From NCBI GenBank assembly GCA_004357015.1, contig SMXE01000128.1, positions 1 to 17,179 of the forward strand: a stretch of 17,179 nt of DNA. Reading direction: 5' to 3'. Positions 47 to 16,243 of this stretch are shown here, piece by piece. The translations under genes were made by a program, and so were the position numbers. Source of the DNA: Caldithrix sp. GTDB taxonomy: Bacteria; Zhuqueibacterota; Zhuqueibacteria; Oceanimicrobiales; Oceanimicrobiaceae. The notes below the pieces were generated by a model that searched no databases, was not told the origin of the DNA, and worked only from the letters and a program-made list of their open reading frames with translations. The first letter of the stretch is position 1, and every line of letters begins with the position of its first letter.

Positions 47-1246
47 ATGGCACACATTAGATACTTGACAGCGGGCGAGTCGCATGGACAGGCACTGGTT
101 GGCATTCTTGAAGGCATGCCGGCCGGCCTGGAGATTTGCGAAGAAGAAATCGCCAGAGACTTGCAGCGCCGGCAAATGGGACATGGCCGTGGTGGCAGAA
201 TGAAAATTGAAAAGGACTGGGCGCAGATTCTTACCGGCGTGCGTTTCGGCCAGACCCTGGGCAGTCCGGTTGCACTTCTCATCGAAAATAAAGACTGGAA
301 GAACTGGACAACAAAAATGTCTGTGGCACCGGTCAGCCATTCTGTCAAAGAGGTCGTGGTGCCCAGGCCCGGCCATGCGGACTACGCTGGTGCAATCAAG
401 TACGGCCACGGTGACATCCGAAATGTACTGGAACGCGCCAGTGCGCGCGAAACCGCTATGCGGGTTGCGCTGGCCGCCATTGCGCGCAAATTTCTGGCGG
501 CATTTTCGATCAAAATCATCAGTCACGTGCTGCGGATTCACAATGCCAGCAGCGGATTTTCTGTTGCCCGGCTGGGCACGAAGGACCAGGCGCCGTTCAG
601 CCTTGACGAAATCAGCGAACTCGCTGACCGCTCAAACGTTCGCTGTTTGGACGAGGCGGCCGCGGAACGCATGGTGGCGAGAATCGACGAAGCAAAAAAG
701 AATCGCGACACTGTCGGTGGCGTGTTTGAGGTCGTGGCCCTGAATGTTCCGGTCGGGCTCGGCAGCCACGTGCACTGGGATCGCAAGCTGGACGCCCGCA
801 TCGGCGAGGCCATGATGAGCATCCCGGCTATGAAGGGCGTGGAAATTGGCCTTGGATTTGAGGCGGCCGGCATGGTCGGCTCGGACGTGCACGATCCGAT
901 CCATTTTGATCAGCAGACGCACACGTACTACCGCTCACGCAACCACGCGGGTGGGCTGGAAGGCGGGATCACGAACGGCATGCCCTTGGTGGTACGGGTG
1001 GCCATGAAGCCGATCTCAACCTTGCTCAAGCCGCTGGATTCGGTAAACATGCAGACGCACGAAAAGACTGCGGCGCACATCGAACGCAGCGACGTATGTG
1101 CGGTGCCGGCGGCGTCCATCATCGGCGAGTCGATCTTGAGCCTGGTGCTGGCCGACGCCTTTCTCGAAAAATTTGGTGGAGACTCCGTGGCGGAGATTCG
1201 GGAGCGCCATGAGGCTTGGCAAGCCAATGTCGCAGGCAAAAAGTAA
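47..1246 (+). CDS. aroC: Chorismate synthase
   Basis: Chorismate synthase catalyses the last shikimate-pathway step: 5-enolpyruvylshikimate-3-phosphate loses phosphate to give chorismate, using reduced FMN, in the cytoplasm. The 399-residue product opens with the family N-terminus (T-A-G-E-S-H-G at residues 8-14). It has the R-P-G-H-A-D block near residue 106, the central signature G-H-G-D-I-R-N-V followed by R-A-S-A-R-E-T around residues 120-137, and the late E-G-G-I-T-N-G-M block that helps bind FMN and substrate. The length is within the family range, slightly longer than the E. coli enzyme. The ATG at 47 is chosen because it gives the canonical N-terminus; only a weak purine stretch (agagaa) lies upstream. 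The 3' end overlaps the start of aroK, and aroQ follows, so this is a co-transcribed aromatic amino acid cluster. Any promoter lies mostly or wholly before the window. Confidence 0.97.
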   Translation: MAHIRYLTAGESHGQALVGILEGMPAGLEICEEEIARDLQRRQMGHGRGGRMKIEKDWAQILTGVRFGQTLGSPVALLIENKDWKNWTTKMSVAPVSHSVKEVVVPRPGHADYAGAIKYGHGDIRNVLERASARETAMRVALAAIARKFLAAFSIKIISHVLRIHNASSGFSVARLGTKDQAPFSLDEISELADRSNVRCLDEAAAERMVARIDEAKKNRDTVGGVFEVVALNVPVGLGSHVHWDRKLDARIGEAMMSIPAMKGVEIGLGFEAAGMVGSDVHDPIHFDQQTHTYYRSRNHAGGLEGGITNGMPLVVRVAMKPISTLLKPLDSVNMQTHEKTAAHIERSDVCAVPAASIIGESILSLVLADAFLEKFGGDSVAEIRERHEAWQANVAGKK

Positions 1247-1760
1247 CATCTATCTGATCGGTTTCATGGGCGCGGGTAAGACCACGATAGGCAAGGCCCT
1301 GGCCGCGCTGCTTGGTTACTCGTTTTGGGACACAGATGAACTGGTCGAAAAGCAGGCGCGCGCGCCCATTACCAAAATTTTCGAAGAGCACGGTGAAGCC
1401 TATTTCAGGAAGGTAGAATCAGACGTTGTGAGGCAGGTTGCTGATCGGAGTGGCCTTGTGGTTGCACTCGGCGGCGGAGCCGTGCTGGCAGAGGATAATT
1501 GGGTGTCGATCCAGCAATCTGGCCTGTCCGTTTATTTGAAGTGGCCCCAGGATGTCCTAATTCACCGAATTTTGGACGGCAGTAAGCGTCCGCTGGTGGC
1601 GGCACTCCCGCGCCATTTGCGGCGGCAACAGCTTGCAGAGCTTCTCAATTCGCGGGAGCCGGTCTATCTGAAGGCTGACTTCTGTATTACCTGTGAGAAA
1701 AGCCAGTCTCCTGATGCCATCGCATCTTTGATTGAAACAAAAATAGGTGAGCGGAGATGA
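1227..1760 (+). CDS. aroK: Shikimate kinase
   Basis: Shikimate kinase phosphorylates shikimate at the 3-hydroxyl with ATP. Counting from the ATG at 1227 (177 residues), the Walker A loop G-F-M-G-A-G-K-T lies at residues 12-19. The D-T-D motif (35-37) binds Mg2+ and shikimate. R61 and E64 lie in the F-R-K-V-E segment, G-G-G is at 82-84, and a lid arginine sits in the S-K-R-P-L segment. All residues expected for activity are visible. The start is uncertain. An in-frame ATG at 1209, with ggag just upstream, adds six residues, and the frame is open back to 1173. All candidates lie inside the end of aroC, so translation is probably coupled. 1227 is preferred because it places the beta-1/P-loop at the usual distance from the N-terminus. 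The gene ends in an ATGA overlap with aroQ. Confidence 0.93.
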   Translation: MSQAKSNIYLIGFMGAGKTTIGKALAALLGYSFWDTDELVEKQARAPITKIFEEHGEAYFRKVESDVVRQVADRSGLVVALGGGAVLAEDNWVSIQQSGLSVYLKWPQDVLIHRILDGSKRPLVAALPRHLRRQQLAELLNSREPVYLKADFCITCEKSQSPDAIASLIETKIGERR

Positions 1761-2269
1761 AAAATATCGCAGTCGTGCACGGACCGAACCTGAATCTTCT
1801 CGGCGAAAGAGAGCCTGAAGTTTACGGCGCCATGACGCTTGCAGACCTAAATCAGGAAGTGACAACTTTTGCTCAGGCAATGGGTTTGGAAATCAGAGTT
1901 TTTCAATCCAATTCAGAGGGCACCATGATTGACTTTCTGCATGAGCAGCGCAAGTGGGCCGACGGCGTTGTGATCAATCCGGCGGCCTTCACCCATTACA
2001 GCTATGCCTTGCGCGATGCAATTGCCGCCATTGGTCTGCCTGTGATTGAAGTGCACTTATCCAACATTTTGGAACGCGAAGAATTCCGGCGCCACTCAGT
2101 CGTAGCAGATGTTTGTGTGGCGCGCCTTATGGGACTGGGATACAGAGGGTACCTGCGCGCTCTCGAACATCTCGTCGGTTTTGGAGTTAGAAAAGAATTA
2201 GACAATCAGGTGGCCCAATCGAATGACCTTGACACAGGTCTGAAAACCTGCGTCAACCTTCTAAAATAG
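1757..2269 (+). CDS. aroQ: Type II 3-dehydroquinate dehydratase with C-terminal extension
   Basis: This type II (dodecameric, trans-eliminating) dehydroquinase converts 3-dehydroquinate to 3-dehydroshikimate. The N-terminus H-G-P-N-L-N-L-L-G is typical. R18 and Y23 (in E-V-Y-G) match the catalytic Arg/Tyr pair. The F-Q-S-N-S-E-G, N-P-A-A-F-T-H-Y-S and I-E-V-H-L-S-N blocks follow, then R-R-H-S. The ATG overlaps the aroK stop (ATGA), which shows translational coupling. The product is 170 residues, while the family usually ends near 140-150, so roughly the last 25-30 residues (from about G-F-G-V-R-K) are extra. The stop is TAG at 2267-2269. The same frame then stays open to 2617 and encodes a GAF domain that lacks its own start, so the extra tail fits as the first helix of that GAF domain. 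The enzyme call is firm; whether the tail is a natural end or a cut fusion is open. Confidence 0.95.
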   Translation: MKNIAVVHGPNLNLLGEREPEVYGAMTLADLNQEVTTFAQAMGLEIRVFQSNSEGTMIDFLHEQRKWADGVVINPAAFTHYSYALRDAIAAIGLPVIEVHLSNILEREEFRRHSVVADVCVARLMGLGYRGYLRALEHLVGFGVRKELDNQVAQSNDLDTGLKTCVNLLK

Positions 2270-2305
2270 CGCTTCCCAAAGTACACGTGGGCTGGCATTT
2301 ATCTG

Positions 2306-2617
2306 GTGGAAGGGGACGAACTTGTGCTGCACAATTTTATCGGTAAGCCATCGCCGCATGAGCGCATTCCCATCGGAAAGGGTGTTTGCGGCGCTGCGGT
2401 AGCAGCGGAGGAATCGATCATCGTGCCAGACGTAAACGCAGACCCGAGATATCTGGCATGCAGCATCGAAACGAAATCGGAAATCGTGGTGCCCATTTTC
2501 GCCGGGCCGCAAGTGGTCGGGGAGATCGATATTGACAGCGACCAACCAGATGCCTTCCACGAGGGCGACCGTGAAATGCTTGAGTCGTGTGCCGAAATAT
2601 TGGGCAAACTCTTCTGA
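2306..2617 (+). CDS. GAF domain, free-methionine-(R)-sulfoxide-reductase type, lacking its own N-terminus
   Basis: About 103 residues form the core of a GAF domain resembling the fRMsr/MsrC family, which reduces free methionine-R-sulfoxide. Visible are R-I-P-I-G-K-G-V-C-G, V-P-D-V-N-A-D-P-R-Y-L-A-C, S-E-I-V-V-P-I and E-I-D-I-D-S, all hallmarks of this subgroup. Two of the three cysteines known from E. coli MsrC are present (in G-V-C-G and L-A-C). The one in the G-K-x-A-C segment is replaced, so activity is uncertain. The frame opens right after the aroQ TAG; codons 2270-2305 already encode the first GAF strand (F-P-K-Y-T-W-A-G-I-Y-L). GTG at 2306 is the first conventional start and would delete that strand, and no convincing ribosome binding site precedes it. 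The domain may be the C-terminal half of an interrupted AroQ-GAF fusion, a readthrough product, or a decaying gene. The domain identity is firm; its independent expression is not. Confidence 0.6.
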   Translation: MEGDELVLHNFIGKPSPHERIPIGKGVCGAAVAAEESIIVPDVNADPRYLACSIETKSEIVVPIFAGPQVVGEIDIDSDQPDAFHEGDREMLESCAEILGKLF

Positions 2618-2735: not shown

Positions 2736-5180
2736 ATGAAACATGGTCATCTATTCGATAGCGAGGATGTGGAAAAGGTAGACTTGCCTAACGTTGCCGG
2801 CGAAGACCCGGAAGAAACAGAGCGACCGGAAAATTTCAATCTTGAGATTCCGCAGGTGCTTTCCATTCTGCCTCTTCGTAACACTGTGGTCTTTCCGCAC
2901 CAGATCATCCCCATCTCCGTTGGCAGAAAGAAATCGATCAAACTGGTTGAGAGCACTCGCGAAGGCACAAAGCTGATCCTTCTTGTAGCGCAGAGGGATG
3001 GCAAGGTGGAAGGTCCCGGTCAGGACGACATCTTCCGCTGGGGCACCATCGCGTCGGTCATGAAGGTGTTTAAAATGCCAGACGGCACACAAAGTGTCAT
3101 GGTGCAGGGCTTGAGTCGGGCACGAATTGTAGAGTTCACCCAGTTTGAGCCATTCTTTAGAGGTCTTATCCAGCCGCAGAAAGAGGTAGTGGTTGAAGGT
3201 GTGGACATTGAGGCGCTGGTAGGGAATGTGCGGACCCTTTTTGAGAAAATTGTTGGCCTCGCACCCTATCTTACGCCGGAACACGTCATGCTGGTGCAGA
3301 ATACGGATGCGCCGGGCAGGCTGACGGACATCATCATTTGGAATCTGAATGTCTCGACTGCTGACAAACAAGAAATCCTGGAGTTGGCAGACGTCAAAGG
3401 CCGGCTGGAAAAGTTGAATTACATCCTGACCAAGGAGTTGCAGATCCTTGAGCTGGGCAGCAAAATTCAGTCAGAAGTGCAGGGGGAGATCAACAAGACG
3501 CAGCGAGAATACTACCTGCGCGAGCAGTTGAAGGCGATCAAGAAAGAACTGGGTGAAGCTGAAGACGACCGCACGGCTGAAATAGCAGAGCTGCGCAAGA
3601 AGATAAAAGACGCGAATATGTCTAAAGAGGCAAACGAGGTTGCGCTGAAAGAACTGGACCGCCTAGGGAAGATGCCACCCGCGGCCGCAGAATATACTGT
3701 ATCCCGCACCTATCTGGACTGGCTCATCGAGGTACCGTGGAGTAAGAGTACCGAAGACAACCTGGACATCGCAGCGGCAAGGGCGGTGCTGGATGAGGAT
3801 CACTATGACCTTGAAAAAATCAAGAAACGAATTCTGGAGTATCTCGCGGTCCGGAAGTTGAAAAAGGATATGAAAGGACCCATCCTGTGTTTCGTCGGGC
3901 CTCCGGGGGTAGGGAAGACCTCGCTCGGTAAGTCCATCGCAAGAGCTCTGGGCAGAAAATTCATGCGCATCTCCCTGGGTGGCGTTCACGACGAGGCCGA
4001 AATACGTGGCCACCGCAGAACTTACATTGGCGCATTGCCCGGCAGAATTATTCAGGGGCTAAAGAAAGTTGGCTCTAACAACCCGGTATTCATGCTAGAT
4101 GAAATTGACAAGGTTGGACAAGATTTTCGGGGTGACCCGTCTTCAGCGCTGTTAGAGGTGTTGGACCCGGAGCAGAACTTTGACTTCTCAGACCACTATT
4201 TGGAAGTCCCCTTTGATTTGTCGCAAGTGATGTTCATCACAACTGCCAACCTCGCCGATCCGATCATCCCAGCTCTTCGAGACCGCATGGAGTTAATTGA
4301 ACTACCCGGCTACACAGAGCATGAAAAACTCAACATCGCAAGAGAATATCTGATCCGGAAACAACTCACAGAACATGGCCTGAGGGAGTCGCAGTTGACT
4401 TTTGAGAATGATTCCATCATCGCCATCATCAACGCCTACACAAGGGAGGCAGGGGTTCGCAACCTCGAGCGGGAAATTGCCGCGGTCTGCCGCGGTGTCG
4501 CCATGGAAGTGGTGGAGGGTAAAACGGATTCCAAAACCATTCGAGCAGACGATCTGCACCAGTATCTTGGCTCCATTAAGTTTTTCTCCGAAGTTGCTGA
4601 GCGAACGTCCCGCTCAGGGGTTGCCACGGGACTGGCGTGGACACCAGCCGGCGGCGATATCTTGTTTGTAGAAGCGAACAAGATGCCGGGCACGGGTCAG
4701 CTCACGTTGACCGGGTCACTGGGGGATGTCATGAAGGAATCGGCGCGGGCGGCCTTGAGCTACATCCGATCACGGGCAAGTGAACTGAAAATATCGAACG
4801 ACATGTTCAGGAAATGGGACATCCACATCCACGTGCCAGCCGGTGCGATACCAAAGGATGGTCCTTCTGCCGGTGTGACACTGTTTACATCTCTGCTGTC
4901 GCTTTTGACAGACAGAAAGGTGAGAAATGACATTGCCATGACCGGGGAGATCACCTTGCGCGGATTGGTTCTGCCTGTTGGTGGCATCAAGGAGAAAGTA
5001 CTTGCCGCGCACCGGGCCGGGATCAAGAAGGTTCTGCTGCCGGAAAAAAATCGCACAGATTATGAGGACATTCCTGAAACCGTTCGCAATGAACTTGAGT
5101 TTACGTTTGTCAAAGAGGTGGAGGATGTCATTCGATTTGCGCTGGAACGATCCGGACAAAAATTGTCTCAAAAAAAGTAA
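2736..5180 (+). CDS. lon: ATP-dependent Lon protease (LonA type)
   Basis: Lon is a cytoplasmic homo-hexameric AAA+ serine protease that degrades misfolded proteins and specific regulators. The 814-residue protein has the LonA layout. An N-terminal substrate-binding LON domain spans about residues 38-230 (starts I-P-Q-V-L-S-I-L-P-L-R-N), followed by a helical/coiled region to about 340. The AAA+ module has Walker A G-P-P-G-V-G-K-T at 388-395 and Walker B V-F-M-L-D-E-I-D. The C-terminal protease domain carries the Ser/Lys dyad: S711 in K-D-G-P-S-A-G and K754 in G-G-I-K-E-K, 43 residues apart as in E. coli Lon (S679/K722). All key residues are intact. The ATG at 2736 has taagg seven bases upstream. 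The gene is separated by 118 bases from the GAF frame and by 191 from the next gene, so it is probably its own transcription unit. No CIRCE or clear heat-shock promoter was seen. Confidence 0.97.
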   Translation: MKHGHLFDSEDVEKVDLPNVAGEDPEETERPENFNLEIPQVLSILPLRNTVVFPHQIIPISVGRKKSIKLVESTREGTKLILLVAQRDGKVEGPGQDDIFRWGTIASVMKVFKMPDGTQSVMVQGLSRARIVEFTQFEPFFRGLIQPQKEVVVEGVDIEALVGNVRTLFEKIVGLAPYLTPEHVMLVQNTDAPGRLTDIIIWNLNVSTADKQEILELADVKGRLEKLNYILTKELQILELGSKIQSEVQGEINKTQREYYLREQLKAIKKELGEAEDDRTAEIAELRKKIKDANMSKEANEVALKELDRLGKMPPAAAEYTVSRTYLDWLIEVPWSKSTEDNLDIAAARAVLDEDHYDLEKIKKRILEYLAVRKLKKDMKGPILCFVGPPGVGKTSLGKSIARALGRKFMRISLGGVHDEAEIRGHRRTYIGALPGRIIQGLKKVGSNNPVFMLDEIDKVGQDFRGDPSSALLEVLDPEQNFDFSDHYLEVPFDLSQVMFITTANLADPIIPALRDRMELIELPGYTEHEKLNIAREYLIRKQLTEHGLRESQLTFENDSIIAIINAYTREAGVRNLEREIAAVCRGVAMEVVEGKTDSKTIRADDLHQYLGSIKFFSEVAERTSRSGVATGLAWTPAGGDILFVEANKMPGTGQLTLTGSLGDVMKESARAALSYIRSRASELKISNDMFRKWDIHIHVPAGAIPKDGPSAGVTLFTSLLSLLTDRKVRNDIAMTGEITLRGLVLPVGGIKEKVLAAHRAGIKKVLLPEKNRTDYEDIPETVRNELEFTFVKEVEDVIRFALERSGQKLSQKK

Positions 5181-5949: not shown

Positions 5950-7194
5950 ATGAAAAACTGGATTGCGACCCTGGTGTTCGTTGCTGTCCTGACCACACTG
6001 GGCAGCGCGGTGTTTGCGCAATCGGGCAAAGGCGCATTTGGCATCGGCTTTAACGCGGGGGCTATGAAGATCTACGGTGACCGTCCCGAGGAAAGTTTTG
6101 GCGTCGGCGGCGAGGGTACCTTTTCGTATCGACTGCTGCCATTTGCAGACATAGGGCTGGCTGTCGGCTATGGACAGTTGAAATACAACTTTGTGCCTGG
6201 GACCAACGGTACCACCACGGACCTTATCAACGTAGACCTGAAGAGCAACTGGGAACTCCTCTCACGTGGCGTATTTAGGCCCTATATCACGTTGGGGGGC
6301 GGCATAATCAGTTACAATATCCGGGGTTCTGCATTCGGACGCAGCATTGACCCCACCGCTTTTGGCGGCGGCGGCTTTCGCGTGCAGTTCAATCCGACCT
6401 GGAACTGGTATGTGGGAGCAGATTACCGATTTACTAAAACCGACCGGTTGGATAACAACAGGGACGAGGGCAGCGCTGACGACGGGTTTCTTAACTTCAG
6501 ATCAGGTATTACGTACCAGTGGGGAGGCAGAAGAGACAGAACGTCGGATATCATCGCAGATGCAAGGGCGCCCATTTACGAGGTAGACGACACCGGATTT
6601 TTCGATGCACCATCCGGATACTCCGAAACAGAAACAAAGAACATGGAAGAGTATGTGAAATTGAAGTCTCGGGTCGACCAGATTACCTCCTCTGTCGATT
6701 CCAGAGACAGAGAAATCCTTGACCTGCAGCGCACACTGAGTGAGCGTAAGAGAATGTTGGCCTCACTTGAGAATCAGGTCGCAAGCAAAGCAGGGAGTGT
6801 TCGGATTCCACGAAGCGCTTCCATGTCAGGCTTCTCTGAAATATATGAGCAGGCCTTGACGCATTATTACAACAAGAGCTTTGGCGAGGGGATTTCTCTC
6901 TTCCGGATGTTGCTGCAACAGTATCCGAACCACGCGCTTGCCAGCAACTGTCAGTTCTGGATTGCACAGAGTTTTTTCTCTATGAACCGCTACCAGGAAG
7001 CGATTGACGCGTATTTCACAGTGCTGGATTTTGAGCGCTCTCTTAAAAAAGATGACGCGTTGTTCTTTCTCGGGAAGTCGTACTTAAAAATGGGCTCGGG
7101 AGATCGCGCACGCCAATCGTTTGGTCGTTTGATGCAGGACTATCCGGCCAGTGAGTACCGGCAGCAGGCCCAGGGTTACCTGGCCAAATTGTAG
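5950..7194 (+). CDS. Outer-membrane beta-barrel protein with coiled coil and C-terminal CpoB/YbgF-like TPR domain
   Basis: The 414-residue protein starts with a Sec signal peptide, with likely cleavage after V-F-A at residue 23. Residues about 28-195 form alternating amphipathic strands rich in G, Y and aromatic residues (for example A-D-I-G-L-A-V-G-Y-G and N-W-Y-V-G-A-D-Y-R-F), as in small 8-stranded OmpW/OmpX-like barrels. A linker leads to a heptad-rich coiled coil at about 220-275. Residues about 292-414 are TPR-like repeats resembling the C-terminus of CpoB/YbgF (Y-E-Q-A-L and F-R-M-L-L-Q-Q-Y-P followed by A-S-N-C-Q-F-W-I-A). The order suggests an outer-membrane anchor displaying a periplasmic TPR scaffold, possibly linked to Tol-Pal or envelope assembly; that role is inferred. 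The start has a strong aaaggag six bases upstream. A terminator follows at 7233-7305, so this gene ends its transcription unit. Confidence 0.85.
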   Translation: MKNWIATLVFVAVLTTLGSAVFAQSGKGAFGIGFNAGAMKIYGDRPEESFGVGGEGTFSYRLLPFADIGLAVGYGQLKYNFVPGTNGTTTDLINVDLKSNWELLSRGVFRPYITLGGGIISYNIRGSAFGRSIDPTAFGGGGFRVQFNPTWNWYVGADYRFTKTDRLDNNRDEGSADDGFLNFRSGITYQWGGRRDRTSDIIADARAPIYEVDDTGFFDAPSGYSETETKNMEEYVKLKSRVDQITSSVDSRDREILDLQRTLSERKRMLASLENQVASKAGSVRIPRSASMSGFSEIYEQALTHYYNKSFGEGISLFRMLLQQYPNHALASNCQFWIAQSFFSMNRYQEAIDAYFTVLDFERSLKKDDALFFLGKSYLKMGSGDRARQSFGRLMQDYPASEYRQQAQGYLAKL

Positions 7195-11020: not shown

Positions 11021-11374
11021 ATGGAAGGATTTGAAGTAACCCCTAATGAGCACAGCGGTATCTCTATCCTGGCTTTAAAGGGATACCTGGATGCGCACAC
11101 CGCGCCTGCTCTGGAGACTGCATTCCAAAAGTTGATTGATGACAAGAAATACAACATCATTGTAAATTTTACAGACCTCAATTACATCAGCAGCGCTGGT
11201 CTGGGTGTCTTTATGGGTTTCATCGAGGACATTCGCAAGAACAGTGGCGACATTAAGCTGACAAACATGAAACCTAAGATTTACCGCGTTTTTGATCTGC
11301 TTGGTTTTCCAACGCTTTACGACATACTGGATGAGGAGGAGAAGGCGATTGAGAAATTCAATAAGCCTTCATAG
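11021..11374 (+). CDS. STAS-domain anti-anti-sigma factor (RsbV/SpoIIAA-like)
   Basis: The 117-residue single STAS domain covers nearly the full length. The family phosphorylation loop appears as Y-I-S-S-A-G-L-G-V at residues 55-63. S58 aligns with the phospho-acceptor serine of SpoIIAA/RsbV, and the usual preceding Asp is replaced by S57. In the known partner-switch mechanism the unphosphorylated protein binds the kinase/anti-sigma factor, and phosphorylation releases it. Early residues (G-I-S-I-L-A-L-K-G-Y-L-D-A) form the standard first strands and helix. It is the first gene of a run with an RsbW-like kinase 66 bases downstream and an RsbU-like phosphatase after that, which supports the role. 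No specific orthologue is claimed because the controlled sigma factor is not visible. Confidence 0.93.
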   Translation: MEGFEVTPNEHSGISILALKGYLDAHTAPALETAFQKLIDDKKYNIIVNFTDLNYISSAGLGVFMGFIEDIRKNSGDIKLTNMKPKIYRVFDLLGFPTLYDILDEEEKAIEKFNKPS

Positions 11375-11440
11375 CACGGATGCGAAACACGACTTAATTA
11401 AACCGGTGAAGCAGCGAGAAGTCTACAGGCCATAAAGGCA

Positions 11441-11878
11441 GTGAACATTTTGCCCAAGACACAGAAAAAATTTCACTTACAGCTCCCTAGCCAGTCAAAC
11501 AACCTTGCGCTCATCCGTGAACTGGTCAGCAAAGTTGCGTCTCAGGTGGGATTTGATACTGACGAGGCAAGCAAGATAGAACTTGCCGTTGATGAAGCGT
11601 GCACCAACGTGATAAAACATGCCTATAGCAACAACGCCAATGAAATGATCGACGTGTTAATCAAAATTGATAACAGAAAGCTCATCATAATAGTGTCAGA
11701 CAAAGGCAAGGGTTTCAATCCGGATAAAGTACAAGTCCCCGACCTTAACGATTCCATAAAATCAGGCCGGACCGGGGGCCTGGGTATCTGCCTGATCAAG
11801 ACCCTGATGGATAAAGTCGACTTCAGCATGAAGCCCGGTCTCAAGAATCAGGTAAAAATGATAAAATACTTGCGCTGA
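11441..11878 (+). CDS. HATPase anti-sigma factor / serine kinase (RsbW/SpoIIAB-like)
   Basis: This GHKL-ATPase of 145 residues is expected to phosphorylate the upstream STAS protein and bind an alternative sigma factor or other target. The N-box reads E-L-A-V-D-E-A-C-T-N-V at about 47-57, with E52 as likely general base and N56 as Mg2+ ligand. The G1 box is D-K-G-K-G-F at 87-92. The G2 box is G-G-L-G-I at 112-116. The length is typical for the family. The start is uncertain: GTG at 11441 has aaagg only two bases upstream, while TTG at 11450 would have better spacing and lose three residues. The gene sits between the STAS protein and the PP2C phosphatase, 28 bases before the latter, which is the classic partner-switch arrangement. 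The target is unknown. Confidence 0.92.
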   Translation: MNILPKTQKKFHLQLPSQSNNLALIRELVSKVASQVGFDTDEASKIELAVDEACTNVIKHAYSNNANEMIDVLIKIDNRKLIIIVSDKGKGFNPDKVQVPDLNDSIKSGRTGGLGICLIKTLMDKVDFSMKPGLKNQVKMIKYLR

Positions 11879-11906
11879 GCACCGCCATTCTAACCACTCC
11901 AATATT

Positions 11907-13628
11907 GTGGACCGCGACCTAAAAGAACAATACGAGCTTCAATCGCTGTTCGATCTCAGCAAGGTTCTCAATTCGTCCCTCAATCTCAAAACCATTCTCG
12001 ACACACTGCTGCTGACGCCAATGGGCAAGTTTCTAATTGGCAAAGGCGTTGTTTTCCTGGCAGATGAGCAGCACTGCTTCACAATCGAGACACTCAAGGG
12101 CCTACCTAAATCCCTGATCGGAAAGCGCCTCAAGATTGACGATTTCCCGACAAAGCCGACATTCGTGGCCGACGCCCCAAGATCGCCTTGGCAGGTCTTG
12201 CTTGAGCAAAACGGAATTCAACTCGTTATCCCCATCCTGCACGATGGCAGCATACTGGGCCTGATAGGATTCGGCCCCAAGTCTATCGGCGGCGAGTACA
12301 CGGGCTCGGATCTTAATTATCTTTATTCCCTCTCAAACATCGCGGCGACTGCTGTACAGAACGGAATCATCTTCCAGGAACTTCATGAAGCAAACAGGAA
12401 GCTTGAGAAAAAGATTCAGGAGTTGAACACGCTTAGCGAAATCGACCGCGAGCTAAACTCGACCCTCTCTTCTCTGGATAGCAAGAAAGTCGTAAATCTG
12501 CTGGCTTACAGCATCATGGGTGAACTAATGGTCAACAGATGCCTGATCTGGCTGGCGGTGGATGGCAAGATGGTCTTGTCGCTGAACAAAGGATTTCAGG
12601 ATGAGGAAGTAGATAAGATCGTGAGCGACGCTTCGATTGTTGACCACTTTTCCAGCATCGATGCGCCAGTGATTGTAAGCGGTGCAAAGGATGATGTGTA
12701 CGCAAAACTCAGAGAAGCCGGCATCGCAGTTTTGGTTCCGATGCGCATCGAAACCGAGACCAAAGGCATGGTCGCCCTCAGTGAGAAGATCACGAAACTT
12801 CCTTTTGTTCAGGAGGATATAGATTTCCTGACGATACTGGGCAATTGGTCAAGCATGTCTATTGAGACGGCCAGATTGATCGAGGAAGAAGTTGAGAAGA
12901 AGAAGTTAGAAGAGGAACTACGCATCGCCAGTGAAATTCAGAAGCAGCTGTTGCCGGAGACCTGCCCCAAAATTGATGGTTTTGAAATAGCCGCGACCAA
13001 TGAACCCTCGCTGCAGATCGGCGGGGACTACTACGATTGCATAAAACTAAACGAGGATGAGTACATTCTTTGCATTGCCGATGTTTCTGGCAAAGGCGCT
13101 CCGGCGGCGCTGCTGATGGCCAATGTACAGGCGAGTTTACACGCGCTTGTGGGGATAGGGTTGACCATCGCTCGGGTCACAGAACGGATAAACGAAATTA
13201 TCTATCGCAACACGACCTACGACAAATTCATCACATTCTTCATCGGTTTGCTCAATGTCCGGGAGAGAAAACTATATTCTGTGAATGCGGGCCACAACCC
13301 CCCATATATCTTCCACAAGGATCGCTCTTTTCAAACGTTAAATGAAGGTGGCCTGATTGTCGGTGTGATGCCGGGGGTGCAATACAGCAGCGAATCCACT
13401 GAGCTGAAATCCGGAGATTGCATTGTCATGTTCACCGACGGCGTATCTGAGGCAATGAACGCCAAAGACGAGGAGTTTGAGGAACACAGAATCGAAGCCT
13501 GCATCGCCCGAAACTACGATTTGCCGGCTCAGGATTTGCTTGAGGCGCTCATCGGCGAGGTCAAGGCGTTTTCCGCCGGCTGCCCGCAGGCAGATGATAT
13601 AACAGCACTGATCATCAAAGTGCGCTGA
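11907..13628 (+). CDS. GAF-GAF-PP2C serine phosphatase (RsbU/SpoIIE-like)
   Basis: The 573-residue soluble protein has two GAF sensor domains (about 20-155 and 175-325). Each is followed by a helical linker, the second rich in E and K (E-E-E-V-E-K-K-K-L-E-E-E-L-R). The C-terminal SpoIIE/PP2C domain covers about 345-573. Metal-binding acids are intact: D374 and D377 in G-G-D-Y-Y-D, D392 in A-D-V-S-G-K-G, D511 in F-T-D-G-V-S-E and D563/D564 in A-D-D-I-T. It should dephosphorylate the phospho-STAS protein in response to a cytoplasmic ligand sensed by the GAF domains; the ligand is unknown. The start GTG at 11907 has no clear Shine-Dalgarno and lies 28 bases after the kinase gene, so translation may depend on upstream ribosomes. 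The start is therefore less certain than the domains. Confidence 0.93.
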   Translation: MDRDLKEQYELQSLFDLSKVLNSSLNLKTILDTLLLTPMGKFLIGKGVVFLADEQHCFTIETLKGLPKSLIGKRLKIDDFPTKPTFVADAPRSPWQVLLEQNGIQLVIPILHDGSILGLIGFGPKSIGGEYTGSDLNYLYSLSNIAATAVQNGIIFQELHEANRKLEKKIQELNTLSEIDRELNSTLSSLDSKKVVNLLAYSIMGELMVNRCLIWLAVDGKMVLSLNKGFQDEEVDKIVSDASIVDHFSSIDAPVIVSGAKDDVYAKLREAGIAVLVPMRIETETKGMVALSEKITKLPFVQEDIDFLTILGNWSSMSIETARLIEEEVEKKKLEEELRIASEIQKQLLPETCPKIDGFEIAATNEPSLQIGGDYYDCIKLNEDEYILCIADVSGKGAPAALLMANVQASLHALVGIGLTIARVTERINEIIYRNTTYDKFITFFIGLLNVRERKLYSVNAGHNPPYIFHKDRSFQTLNEGGLIVGVMPGVQYSSESTELKSGDCIVMFTDGVSEAMNAKDEEFEEHRIEACIARNYDLPAQDLLEALIGEVKAFSAGCPQADDITALIIKVR

Positions 13629-13697
13629 AGTAGCACCAACACATGCCACAATTCAAAAACGTACGATTGACTACGGATTAAGGGTCGGGAACCGGAC

Positions 13698-15008
13698 TTG
13701 GAAAGGCGGGAGCAACTTCGTCGGGAGATTTCACGCTTTGGATTGGCAGCCCTGGCAATCAATGGCTTAATCGGCGCCGGCATCTTTGCCCTGCCTGCCG
13801 CGGTCATACAGCAGGCGGGCGCATTCAGCCCGGCCGTTTTCGCTATTTGCGGCGTTCTTATGCTGACGGTCGTGCTGTCCTTTGCTCAGGCCGCGAGCTA
13901 TTTCCGGGGGACCGGCGGCCCGGTGCTTTACGCCAAAACTGCGTTCGGCTCCTTCGTCGGTTTTCAAACGGGCTGGTTGCTGTACATCGGCCGGGTCACA
14001 GCTTTGGCCGCCAATAGCAACGCGCTTGTAAACTACGGCGGTCTTCTGTGGGACGGCCTGGCTGAAGGGTTTGGCCGCGCACTCGGGATTGTTGTCTGCT
14101 TTGTTTTTTTCACGACAGTTAACACGGTCGGCGTTCGTCGGGGCATGGCCGCCACAAATTTTCTAACCATCCTCAAATTGCTGCCTTTGTTGTTGTTTAT
14201 TGCGGTCGGAATTTCTTATATTAAACCTCAGGAAATTGTCGGCGCCGCGCCGCTGCCCGTGGGGACCCTGGCTGGAACGCTGCTGCTTGTGGTTTACGCT
14301 TTCGTCGGATTTGAAGGTGCGGTCGTGCCTGCAGGGGAATCCAAAAGTCCGAGACTGGATATACCCCGGGCGCTGCTGCTGACCCTTGGGTTTACGGGCG
14401 TGCTCTATATCATCATTCAGGCGATTTGTGTGGCGGTGCTGCCAGAAGGAACTGCGACACAAACGCCGGTCGCGGATGTTGCCAGACTGATGGTCGGTGC
14501 ACCTGGCGCGTGGATTATGACACTTGCCGCGTTCTTGTCCATTGCGGGGAACATCTCTTCAATCATGGTGACTGCTCCACGAATGACCTACGCTATGGCG
14601 CGGGACAAGACCCTGCCCATCTGGTTTGCCAAAGTGCATCAAAGCCACCAAACCCCGACGACTTCCATCATCTTTCTTGGTGTGGTAGGATTGGCTCTGG
14701 CGCTGACTGGTACGTTTGTCTGGCTGGCAATCATGAGTTCCCTCGCGCGTCTGATTGGCTACGGCGTATGCGTTGCAGCTTTGCCAAAGTTAAAAAAGAA
14801 GTTCGCCGCTGGGGCAACTGCGTTCAACTTGCCGGGTGGTCTGTTGATTCCGGCAATTGCATTGCTGCTCTGTGTGTGGCTGGCTGCACAGGCTGATGCG
14901 AGATCGTGGGGCATGACGGCGGCTTTTATGGTGGCTGGGACGGTGTTGTATCTGGCAACACGCAAAATACCCGTATCAAAGAATATGGACGCACCATGCA
15001 AGGACTGA
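13698..15008 (+). CDS. APC-superfamily amino acid permease
   Basis: The 436-residue integral membrane protein has about twelve hydrophobic segments in the LeuT-like APC fold. The first helix carries the family substrate-site motif N-G-L-I-G-A-G-I-F at about residues 22-30. A later segment, Y-A-F-V-G-F-E-G-A, matches the conserved helix 6 motif (F-x-G-F-E) of amino acid/polyamine/organocation transporters, followed by G-E-S-K-S-P-R-L-D-I-P-R-A, a typical loop. It most likely imports or exchanges an amino acid at the inner membrane; the substrate cannot be read from sequence. The start is TTG at 13698 with ggga seven bases upstream, and no ATG is available before the first helix. It lies 69 bases after the phosphatase and 89 before the receiver-phosphatase gene in the same direction, so it may belong to the same transcript. 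Confidence 0.9.
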   Translation: MERREQLRREISRFGLAALAINGLIGAGIFALPAAVIQQAGAFSPAVFAICGVLMLTVVLSFAQAASYFRGTGGPVLYAKTAFGSFVGFQTGWLLYIGRVTALAANSNALVNYGGLLWDGLAEGFGRALGIVVCFVFFTTVNTVGVRRGMAATNFLTILKLLPLLLFIAVGISYIKPQEIVGAAPLPVGTLAGTLLLVVYAFVGFEGAVVPAGESKSPRLDIPRALLLTLGFTGVLYIIIQAICVAVLPEGTATQTPVADVARLMVGAPGAWIMTLAAFLSIAGNISSIMVTAPRMTYAMARDKTLPIWFAKVHQSHQTPTTSIIFLGVVGLALALTGTFVWLAIMSSLARLIGYGVCVAALPKLKKKFAAGATAFNLPGGLLIPAIALLLCVWLAAQADARSWGMTAAFMVAGTVLYLATRKIPVSKNMDAPCKD

Positions 15009-15097
15009 ACCATGTGATAGTAACTTTACTGCATGAATGTGACCACACAACCGCACACAATTCCGAATTATAGCACTTCAAGTTAACGACTCAAACG

Positions 15098-16243
15098 ATG
15101 GCAAACATACTCATCGTCGATGACGAAAAATCGATTACCTACCTGCTTTCTGAAGTCTTGCAGAAAGATGGTCACGACGTCCGGACACTCTCGGATGGCA
15201 AGATGGTTAAAGATGACCTGAGGAAACACCACTACGACCTCGTGGTTTCGGATTTACACATGCGACAGGTAGGCGGCATCGAGGTGCTGAAGACCGTCAA
15301 AAACAAGGATGAAAACACGGAAGTCCTGATTTTAACCGGGCACGGAACCATCTCCACCGCCGTTGAGGCCATGAAGCTGAGTGCGTTCGAATTCCTCACC
15401 AAGCCTATCGATATGGAGGAGTTCCGGCTTAAGGTGCAGAAGGCGCTCGAGCGCAGAAGTTTCAAGATCAAAATCGAACGACAGCAAAAAGAGATCCGCG
15501 AACAGCAGGAGATGATCCGGAGGGACCTCCAACTGGCAGAGCACGTGCAGAAAAGCCTGGTGCCGAAACCATTGCACCTGCCCAACCTGGAAGTCTCCGT
15601 CAAGCATTTGCCGATGATCGGCGTCGGCGGGGATTTCGCCGATATCTATTACGACGGCATTGAAAATGTTTACCTCACACTCGTCGACGTCACCGGCCAC
15701 GGCATCACCGCGGCGCTGCTGGTGAACCGCATCTGCAGCGAAATCCGTAACCTGGTTCGCGATAAGCGGCAGCCGTCATCCATTTTGTACACGCTTAACG
15801 ACTTCATATTCGAAGCCTTCGAAGGCATGGCGACGTTTCTGACGATGTTCTGCGGCATTTTGAACCTGCGAAAAAAATCATTTACCTACGCTGGCAGCGC
15901 GCATCCGGCCGTTATCCTGTGGCGTAGCCGCGAAAACAAATTTCTTAAGCTGGAATCACAGAATATCATCATCGGTTATGAAAAAAGAGACGAAAACAGG
16001 TTCTTGCAAGACACTGTGATGCTGGGCGCGGAAGACAAGCTTTTAATGTACACCGACGGCATCATCGAAACCGAAGACGCTGACGGCAAACAGTTGGGCA
16101 TTAATGGCTTTATCAATTTTTTAAAGTCGAGTATTTATTTGCCCGGCGACGAGATCATGGATACCATTTTGAACGGCATCAATGAATTCAGCCCACAGCC
16201 GATCAAGGATGATGTGTTTTTGATTCTGGCCGGGTTGAAATAA
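15098..16243 (+). CDS. Response regulator with PP2C (RsbU-type) phosphatase output
   Basis: The 381-residue protein combines an intact receiver (about 1-120) with a PP2C/SpoIIE phosphatase (about 140-381). Receiver residues are canonical: D8/D9, phospho-acceptor D52 (V-V-S-D-L), T80 (I-L-T-G) and K102 (L-T-K-P). A charged helix at about 118-150 links the halves. Phosphatase acids are D179 and D182 (G-G-D-F-A-D), D197 (V-D-V-T-G-H-G), D320 (Y-T-D-G) and D371/D372 (K-D-D-V-F). It should turn a two-component phospho-signal into dephosphorylation of an STAS-type partner, plausibly the one encoded at 11021. No histidine kinase is in the window. The ATG at 15098 gives the usual receiver N-terminus although its Shine-Dalgarno is weak. 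It resembles E. coli RssB or HsbR-type regulators only in layout. Confidence 0.94.
   Translation: MANILIVDDEKSITYLLSEVLQKDGHDVRTLSDGKMVKDDLRKHHYDLVVSDLHMRQVGGIEVLKTVKNKDENTEVLILTGHGTISTAVEAMKLSAFEFLTKPIDMEEFRLKVQKALERRSFKIKIERQQKEIREQQEMIRRDLQLAEHVQKSLVPKPLHLPNLEVSVKHLPMIGVGGDFADIYYDGIENVYLTLVDVTGHGITAALLVNRICSEIRNLVRDKRQPSSILYTLNDFIFEAFEGMATFLTMFCGILNLRKKSFTYAGSAHPAVILWRSRENKFLKLESQNIIIGYEKRDENRFLQDTVMLGAEDKLLMYTDGIIETEDADGKQLGINGFINFLKSSIYLPGDEIMDTILNGINEFSPQPIKDDVFLILAGLK

Follow-up and report, generated by a model that had tools for sequence, protein, structure and literature searches.

What is a single TAG codon doing between two halves of one open reading frame? The question is raised by a 17,179-nucleotide stretch of DNA from Caldithrix sp. 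(contig SMXE01000128.1 of assembly GCA_004357015.1), here called the window, in which the frame of aroQ, encoding a type II 3-dehydroquinate dehydratase, ends at a TAG and then continues without a stop through a GAF domain. Our analyses strongly favor the view that a conserved fusion of AroQ with a free methionine-R-sulfoxide reductase (fRMsr) has been broken in this sequence by one TAG, whether through recent change, as a minor variant, or by a base error. The existence of a conserved AroQ-fRMsr fusion family is well supported.

One frame on both sides of a TAG

The frame opens with ATG at 1757, meets TAG at 2267-2269 and stays open until TGA at 2615-2617, as an earlier note on this DNA had read it. 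The relevant features, with residues numbered across the stop, are:

1757..2176, + strand: AroQ catalytic domain, residues 1-140
2177..2266, + strand: AroQ tail, residues 141-170, in which the last AroQ helix (130-155) extends and the first GAF helix (158-172) follows, as judged from the predicted model of the relative P0002 and from fRMsr structures
2267..2269, + strand: in-frame TAG (codon 171), where the first GAF helix ends
2270..2614, + strand: remainder of the GAF domain, type II fRMsr-like, with C211 at codon 2387-2389 and C235 at codon 2459-2461

The AroQ part matched Pfam DHquinase_II over residues 3-139 (E 1.1e-57; 194 bits against a cut-off of 23.3) and scored 188.8 against the type II 3-dehydroquinate dehydratase model TIGR01088 (cut-off 169.85). 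R18, Y23, N74, H80, H100, and R111, which we take to be the catalytic Tyr, Arg, Asn, and His residues of type II dehydroquinase, are all present and were invariant among the best 120 relatives listed in the protein search described below. A typical enzyme of this type has neither the additional 30-residue tail nor the C-terminal GAF enzyme domain of the window protein.

The 115 residues downstream of the TAG matched Pfam GAF (E 9.2e-13), with the match beginning only at profile position 21; the start of the domain is therefore missing after the TAG. The first in-frame start codon past the stop, GTG at 2306, sits within the first GAF strand of the P0002 model, and inspection by eye revealed no obvious ribosome-binding site in the 20 bases upstream of it. 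These results bear out the earlier claim that the GAF part has neither its first helix nor a good start. A run of 115 codons would remain open by chance in about 0.4% of cases, assuming equal codon use; the frame's homology to fused proteins, which spans the stop, rules chance out.

The missing piece is predicted to lie in the AroQ tail. P0002 is a 286-residue protein that differs from the window protein only at positions 57, 171, and 224, and position 171 is the TAG codon. Its predicted model (m928e884ede4e; pLDDT 95) has helices at 130-155 and 158-172 followed by a strand at 178-185, and the fRMsr structures 3rfb and 3ksf align with it over residues 135-286 and 133-286, respectively, such that the GAF fold of the fusion resembles that of solved fRMsr enzymes. 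This predicted model shows the AroQ tail providing the first GAF helix and places the TAG at the end of that helix, in agreement with the earlier proposal that tail and downstream codons together form a normal GAF N-terminus.

Conservation of the fusion

A protein search with the window protein, carrying X at the stop, returned 7,786 matches, of which the best 120 were examined; the length limits set for the query drop most lone AroQ proteins. All of these best 120 were AroQ-GAF fusions of 272-295 residues without the window's stop. The column of codon 171 was variable among them (R 44, E 34, D 13, A 7, Q 6, K 4, others 12). Named records among the 120 were all called 3-dehydroquinate dehydratase and came from candidate division KSB1, Calditrichaeota, Caldithrix, or simply 'bacterium.' A scan of named genome contigs yielded a single distant AroQ only and thus gave no named DNA copy of the fusion.

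Across 82 genomes of the phylum, the window's own included, both domains were matched in 18, and a stop inside the fusion was found in none of the 17 others. The earlier suggestion to look for relatives with an AroQ of about 285 residues and a C-terminal GAF was thus fruitful, with many relatives of about 286 residues among the protein matches and the phylum genomes. By family, the fusion was present in 7 of 8 genomes of f1, 4 of 7 of f6, and 7 of 8 of f8, and in no other family; six of the seven other genomes of the window's own family carry it. The fusion gene lies behind aroC and aroK in all 13 fetched fusion loci (L004-L016), and a lon match follows it in nine, among them most of the fetched loci of families f1 and f8. 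The loci without a lon match are L012, L013, and L015, all of family f6, and L004, where the fetched stretch ends too early. The corresponding neighbors in the window are:

47..1246, + strand: aroC, chorismate synthase (Pfam Chorismate_synt, E 1.4e-122), leading the conserved order aroC-aroK-aroQ
1209..1760, + strand: aroK, shikimate kinase (Pfam SKI, E 2.2e-42, scored on the frame 1173-1757), with stop TGA at 1758-1760
2736..5180, + strand: lon protease gene (Pfam Lon_C, LON_substr_bdg, AAA)

The start of aroK is uncertain (ATG 1209 or another), and its last 4 bases are shared with the start of aroQ. Farther downstream, at 11021-16243, proteins with STAS, anti-sigma type HATPase_c_2, GAF-SpoIIE, and response-regulator-SpoIIE domains are clustered, with an amino-acid permease in between; this looks like a partner-switching regulatory set.

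In a phylogenetic reconstruction of the AroQ domain, all 135 fused proteins fell in one clade (support 0.92), and 20 unfused homologs also fell inside it; the tree therefore does not settle whether fusion occurred once or several times. In the tree of GAF domains, the clade of fused GAFs (support 0.90) also took in 14 matches of the GAF search. Among the short GAF records of the fused clade, P0197 and P0275 begin in an apparent AroQ part and may be fragments, and P0200, P0216, and P0275 start near the junction; the latter three may represent naturally split fusions, copies broken as in the window, or gene-calling fragments.

A search of the full-text literature, with most subscription journals outside its coverage, found no paper with a title or opening lines of the abstract describing a fusion between AroQ and a GAF domain or methionine sulfoxide reductase, and a search on KSB1 and shikimate found no paper at all. 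Among other fusions we observed, P0139 (223 residues; one record among 120 listed) joins AroQ to a different redox-type C-terminal domain, with CDGSH in place of GAF.

The GAF domain as a probable type II fRMsr

The nearest fRMsr structure to the GAF part is the type II enzyme of Thermoplasma acidophilum (40% identity over 128 columns, rmsd 1.0). C211 and C235 align without gaps with chain positions 60 and 84 of 4mmn and thus correspond to Cys60 and Cys84 of Ta0848 from T. acidophilum. Both of those cysteines are critical for activity and Cys84 is the nucleophile, according to a review (PMC6211008). C211, C235, Glu 242, Asp 258, and Asp 260 were invariant in 121 fused proteins, in 120 listed GAF-search matches (mostly standalone, with P0197 including part of AroQ), and in seven unfused GAFs from the phylum. 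Type I fRMsr enzymes carry a Cys at the third-cysteine column, whereas this column holds His in the window, in 121 of 121 fused proteins, and in 119 of the 120 listed GAF-search matches. Judged by fold and residues, the GAF domain looks like an fRMsr of the type II kind. The earlier description of it as a redox or small-molecule GAF gives way to this assignment, as the domain resembles a methionine-sulfoxide reductase enzyme and not a generic redox or ligand sensor. The T. acidophilum enzyme is standalone, whereas the window GAF is fused behind AroQ with a joint helical junction.

A separate match to the GAF part (E <= 1e-12) was detected in 39 of 64 unfused phylum genomes versus none of the 18 fused genomes (Fisher p 1.1e-6, a value that is too small since the genomes are related). 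In the genomes examined, the separate fRMsr gene thus appears to be replaced by the fused copy. The frequency of separate GAF matches in the phylum also speaks for two genes in the window, AroQ and an independently started GAF protein. This reading is nonetheless very improbable: the stretch behind the TAG is without the first helix and has its first start codon inside the first strand, six of seven relatives in the same family are fused, and the fetched stretches of eight unfused genomes show no GAF match behind AroQ. In those eight (G023, G049, G050, G053, G056, G065, G070, and G071) the AroQ match itself crosses one stop (one TAG, one TGA, and six TAA), and no GAF was found behind these stops in the stretch fetched, with the contigs of G049 and G056 ending soon after. 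We rejected them as counterparts of the window's TAG, as each merely ends a lone AroQ. A second, partial AroQ match in G022 likewise crosses a stop; our check of stops covered the other eight genomes. A reading as two separate genes was rejected for the fusion family.

A GAF of like kind also occurs as the C-terminal half of fusions in three genomes from other families of the phylum, with a partner from the carboxymuconolactone-decarboxylase (CMD; AhpD-like) family and not AroQ. Pfam was run on G008 and G037 only. The loci are:

L051:991-1827: CMD-fRMsr fusion of G008
L052:929-1816: CMD-fRMsr fusion of G013
L053:1515-2357: CMD-fRMsr fusion of G037

The AhpD-like domain of all three carries a cysteine pair, and a possible role for this partner is that of a built-in electron donor for methionine-sulfoxide reduction.

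Origin and consequences of the TAG

The intact, coding-like GAF downstream of the stop is what would be expected if programmed or leaky amber readthrough yielded AroQ together with a minor AroQ-GAF form, a mechanism that the earlier note had entertained. We consider this very unlikely, and reassignment of TAG unlikely. None of the 17 fused phylum relatives has a stop inside, the genome encodes release factor 1, and TAG is a common ordinary stop in the part of the genome sampled. In a sample of 60 contigs plus the window (494,654 of 2,216,483 bases), TAG terminated 101 of 350 coding-like open reading frames. Coding-like in-frame extensions followed 9 of 101 TAG (the window case included), 13 of 114 TAA, and 10 of 135 TGA stops (Fisher p = 1.0, TAG versus the rest); most such extensions may be neighboring genes that share a frame. 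TAG is also the stop of four among the 12 other main frames in the window, with ends at 7194, 9396, 10782, and 11374. No tRNA with the UAG-reading CUA anticodon was present among the 17 tRNA genes found in this genome, which is 70% complete; Rfam identified the 17, and ARAGORN, applied to 11 of the 17 loci, listed 17, each with a sense anticodon. Of the earlier proposal, the fusion and its interruption by a one-base change or an error stand, the latter two as alternatives, whereas programmed readthrough gains no support.

Apart from the TAG, the GAF domain appears sound. Its identity to six same-family relatives is 71.2%, compared with 67.8% for those relatives among themselves, its coding score equals that of AroQ, and no further damage was found in it. 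The TAG therefore either arose very recently, exists as a minor variant, or reflects a wrong base in the assembly. There is nearly an even chance that the metagenome contig carries a sequencing or consensus error and that the living cell keeps an intact fusion. The lack of decay in the GAF, the intact and nearly identical P0002, and the confinement of the difference to one codon in a variable column favor such an error, but the other window genes run against Pfam have long unbroken frames, so the contig does not look generally poor.

A real, recent nonsense allele, in a strain that produces only AroQ after losing the fused fRMsr, is about as probable as an error, and a regulatory trick is less so. 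The AroQ domain remains complete in such an allele, and loss of the GAF occurs elsewhere in the group. G004, from the same family, keeps aroC-aroK-aroQ-lon, but its AroQ (L017:1495-1926) ends at 143 residues and no GAF match was found in that genome; the fused domain has probably been lost naturally there. The AroQ of G004 has the same sequence as P0149, a record named candidate division KSB1, so the window's genome is probably KSB1-like. In the 302-residue frame of G033 (L032:1354-2259), a genome of family f6, Pfam does not recognize the part behind AroQ as GAF, and inspection by eye showed no second catalytic cysteine motif; this part looks like a degenerate GAF. Loss of the GAF is therefore tolerated in places, and the domain is not always needed, which makes a real nonsense allele plausible. 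The window's genome also encodes two MsrB (SelR) proteins that could act on Met-R-sulfoxide too and so partly cover a loss. Against such an allele are the otherwise undamaged GAF, the intact P0002, and the absence of a second GAF-part match (E <= 1e-12) in the window's genome at 70% completeness. The apparent losses in G004 and G033 and the presence of the two MsrB genes also weigh against our overall interpretation, as does the fact that P0002 is known as a protein record only and may stem from the same or a very near population.

In an intact fusion, we infer a bifunctional protein in which AroQ would make 3-dehydroshikimate and the GAF domain would reduce free Met-R-sulfoxide by way of C235, the counterpart of T. 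acidophilum Cys84. A real TAG would yield a protein of 170 residues in which a complete AroQ domain is followed by an orphan helix; the GAF enzyme would probably be lost, as what remains lacks a good start. We know of no metabolic link between AroQ, which acts early in aromatic synthesis, and the repair of oxidized free methionine. Control of shikimate flux by the GAF, as raised in the earlier note, is speculative. It is conceivable, if doubtful, that the fused fRMsr links AroQ activity in the assembled enzyme to the methionine-sulfoxide or thiol redox state. If so, aromatic amino-acid and quinone synthesis would respond to oxidative stress, and nonsense alleles like that of the window would uncouple the two domains.

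The TAG itself is of minor importance, being either an everyday nonsense mutation or a misread base. The fusion family unites two housekeeping enzymes, one catalyzing an early step of aromatic synthesis and the other repairing oxidized free methionine, and its methionine-repair half is hidden in annotation because named records are called only 3-dehydroquinate dehydratase.
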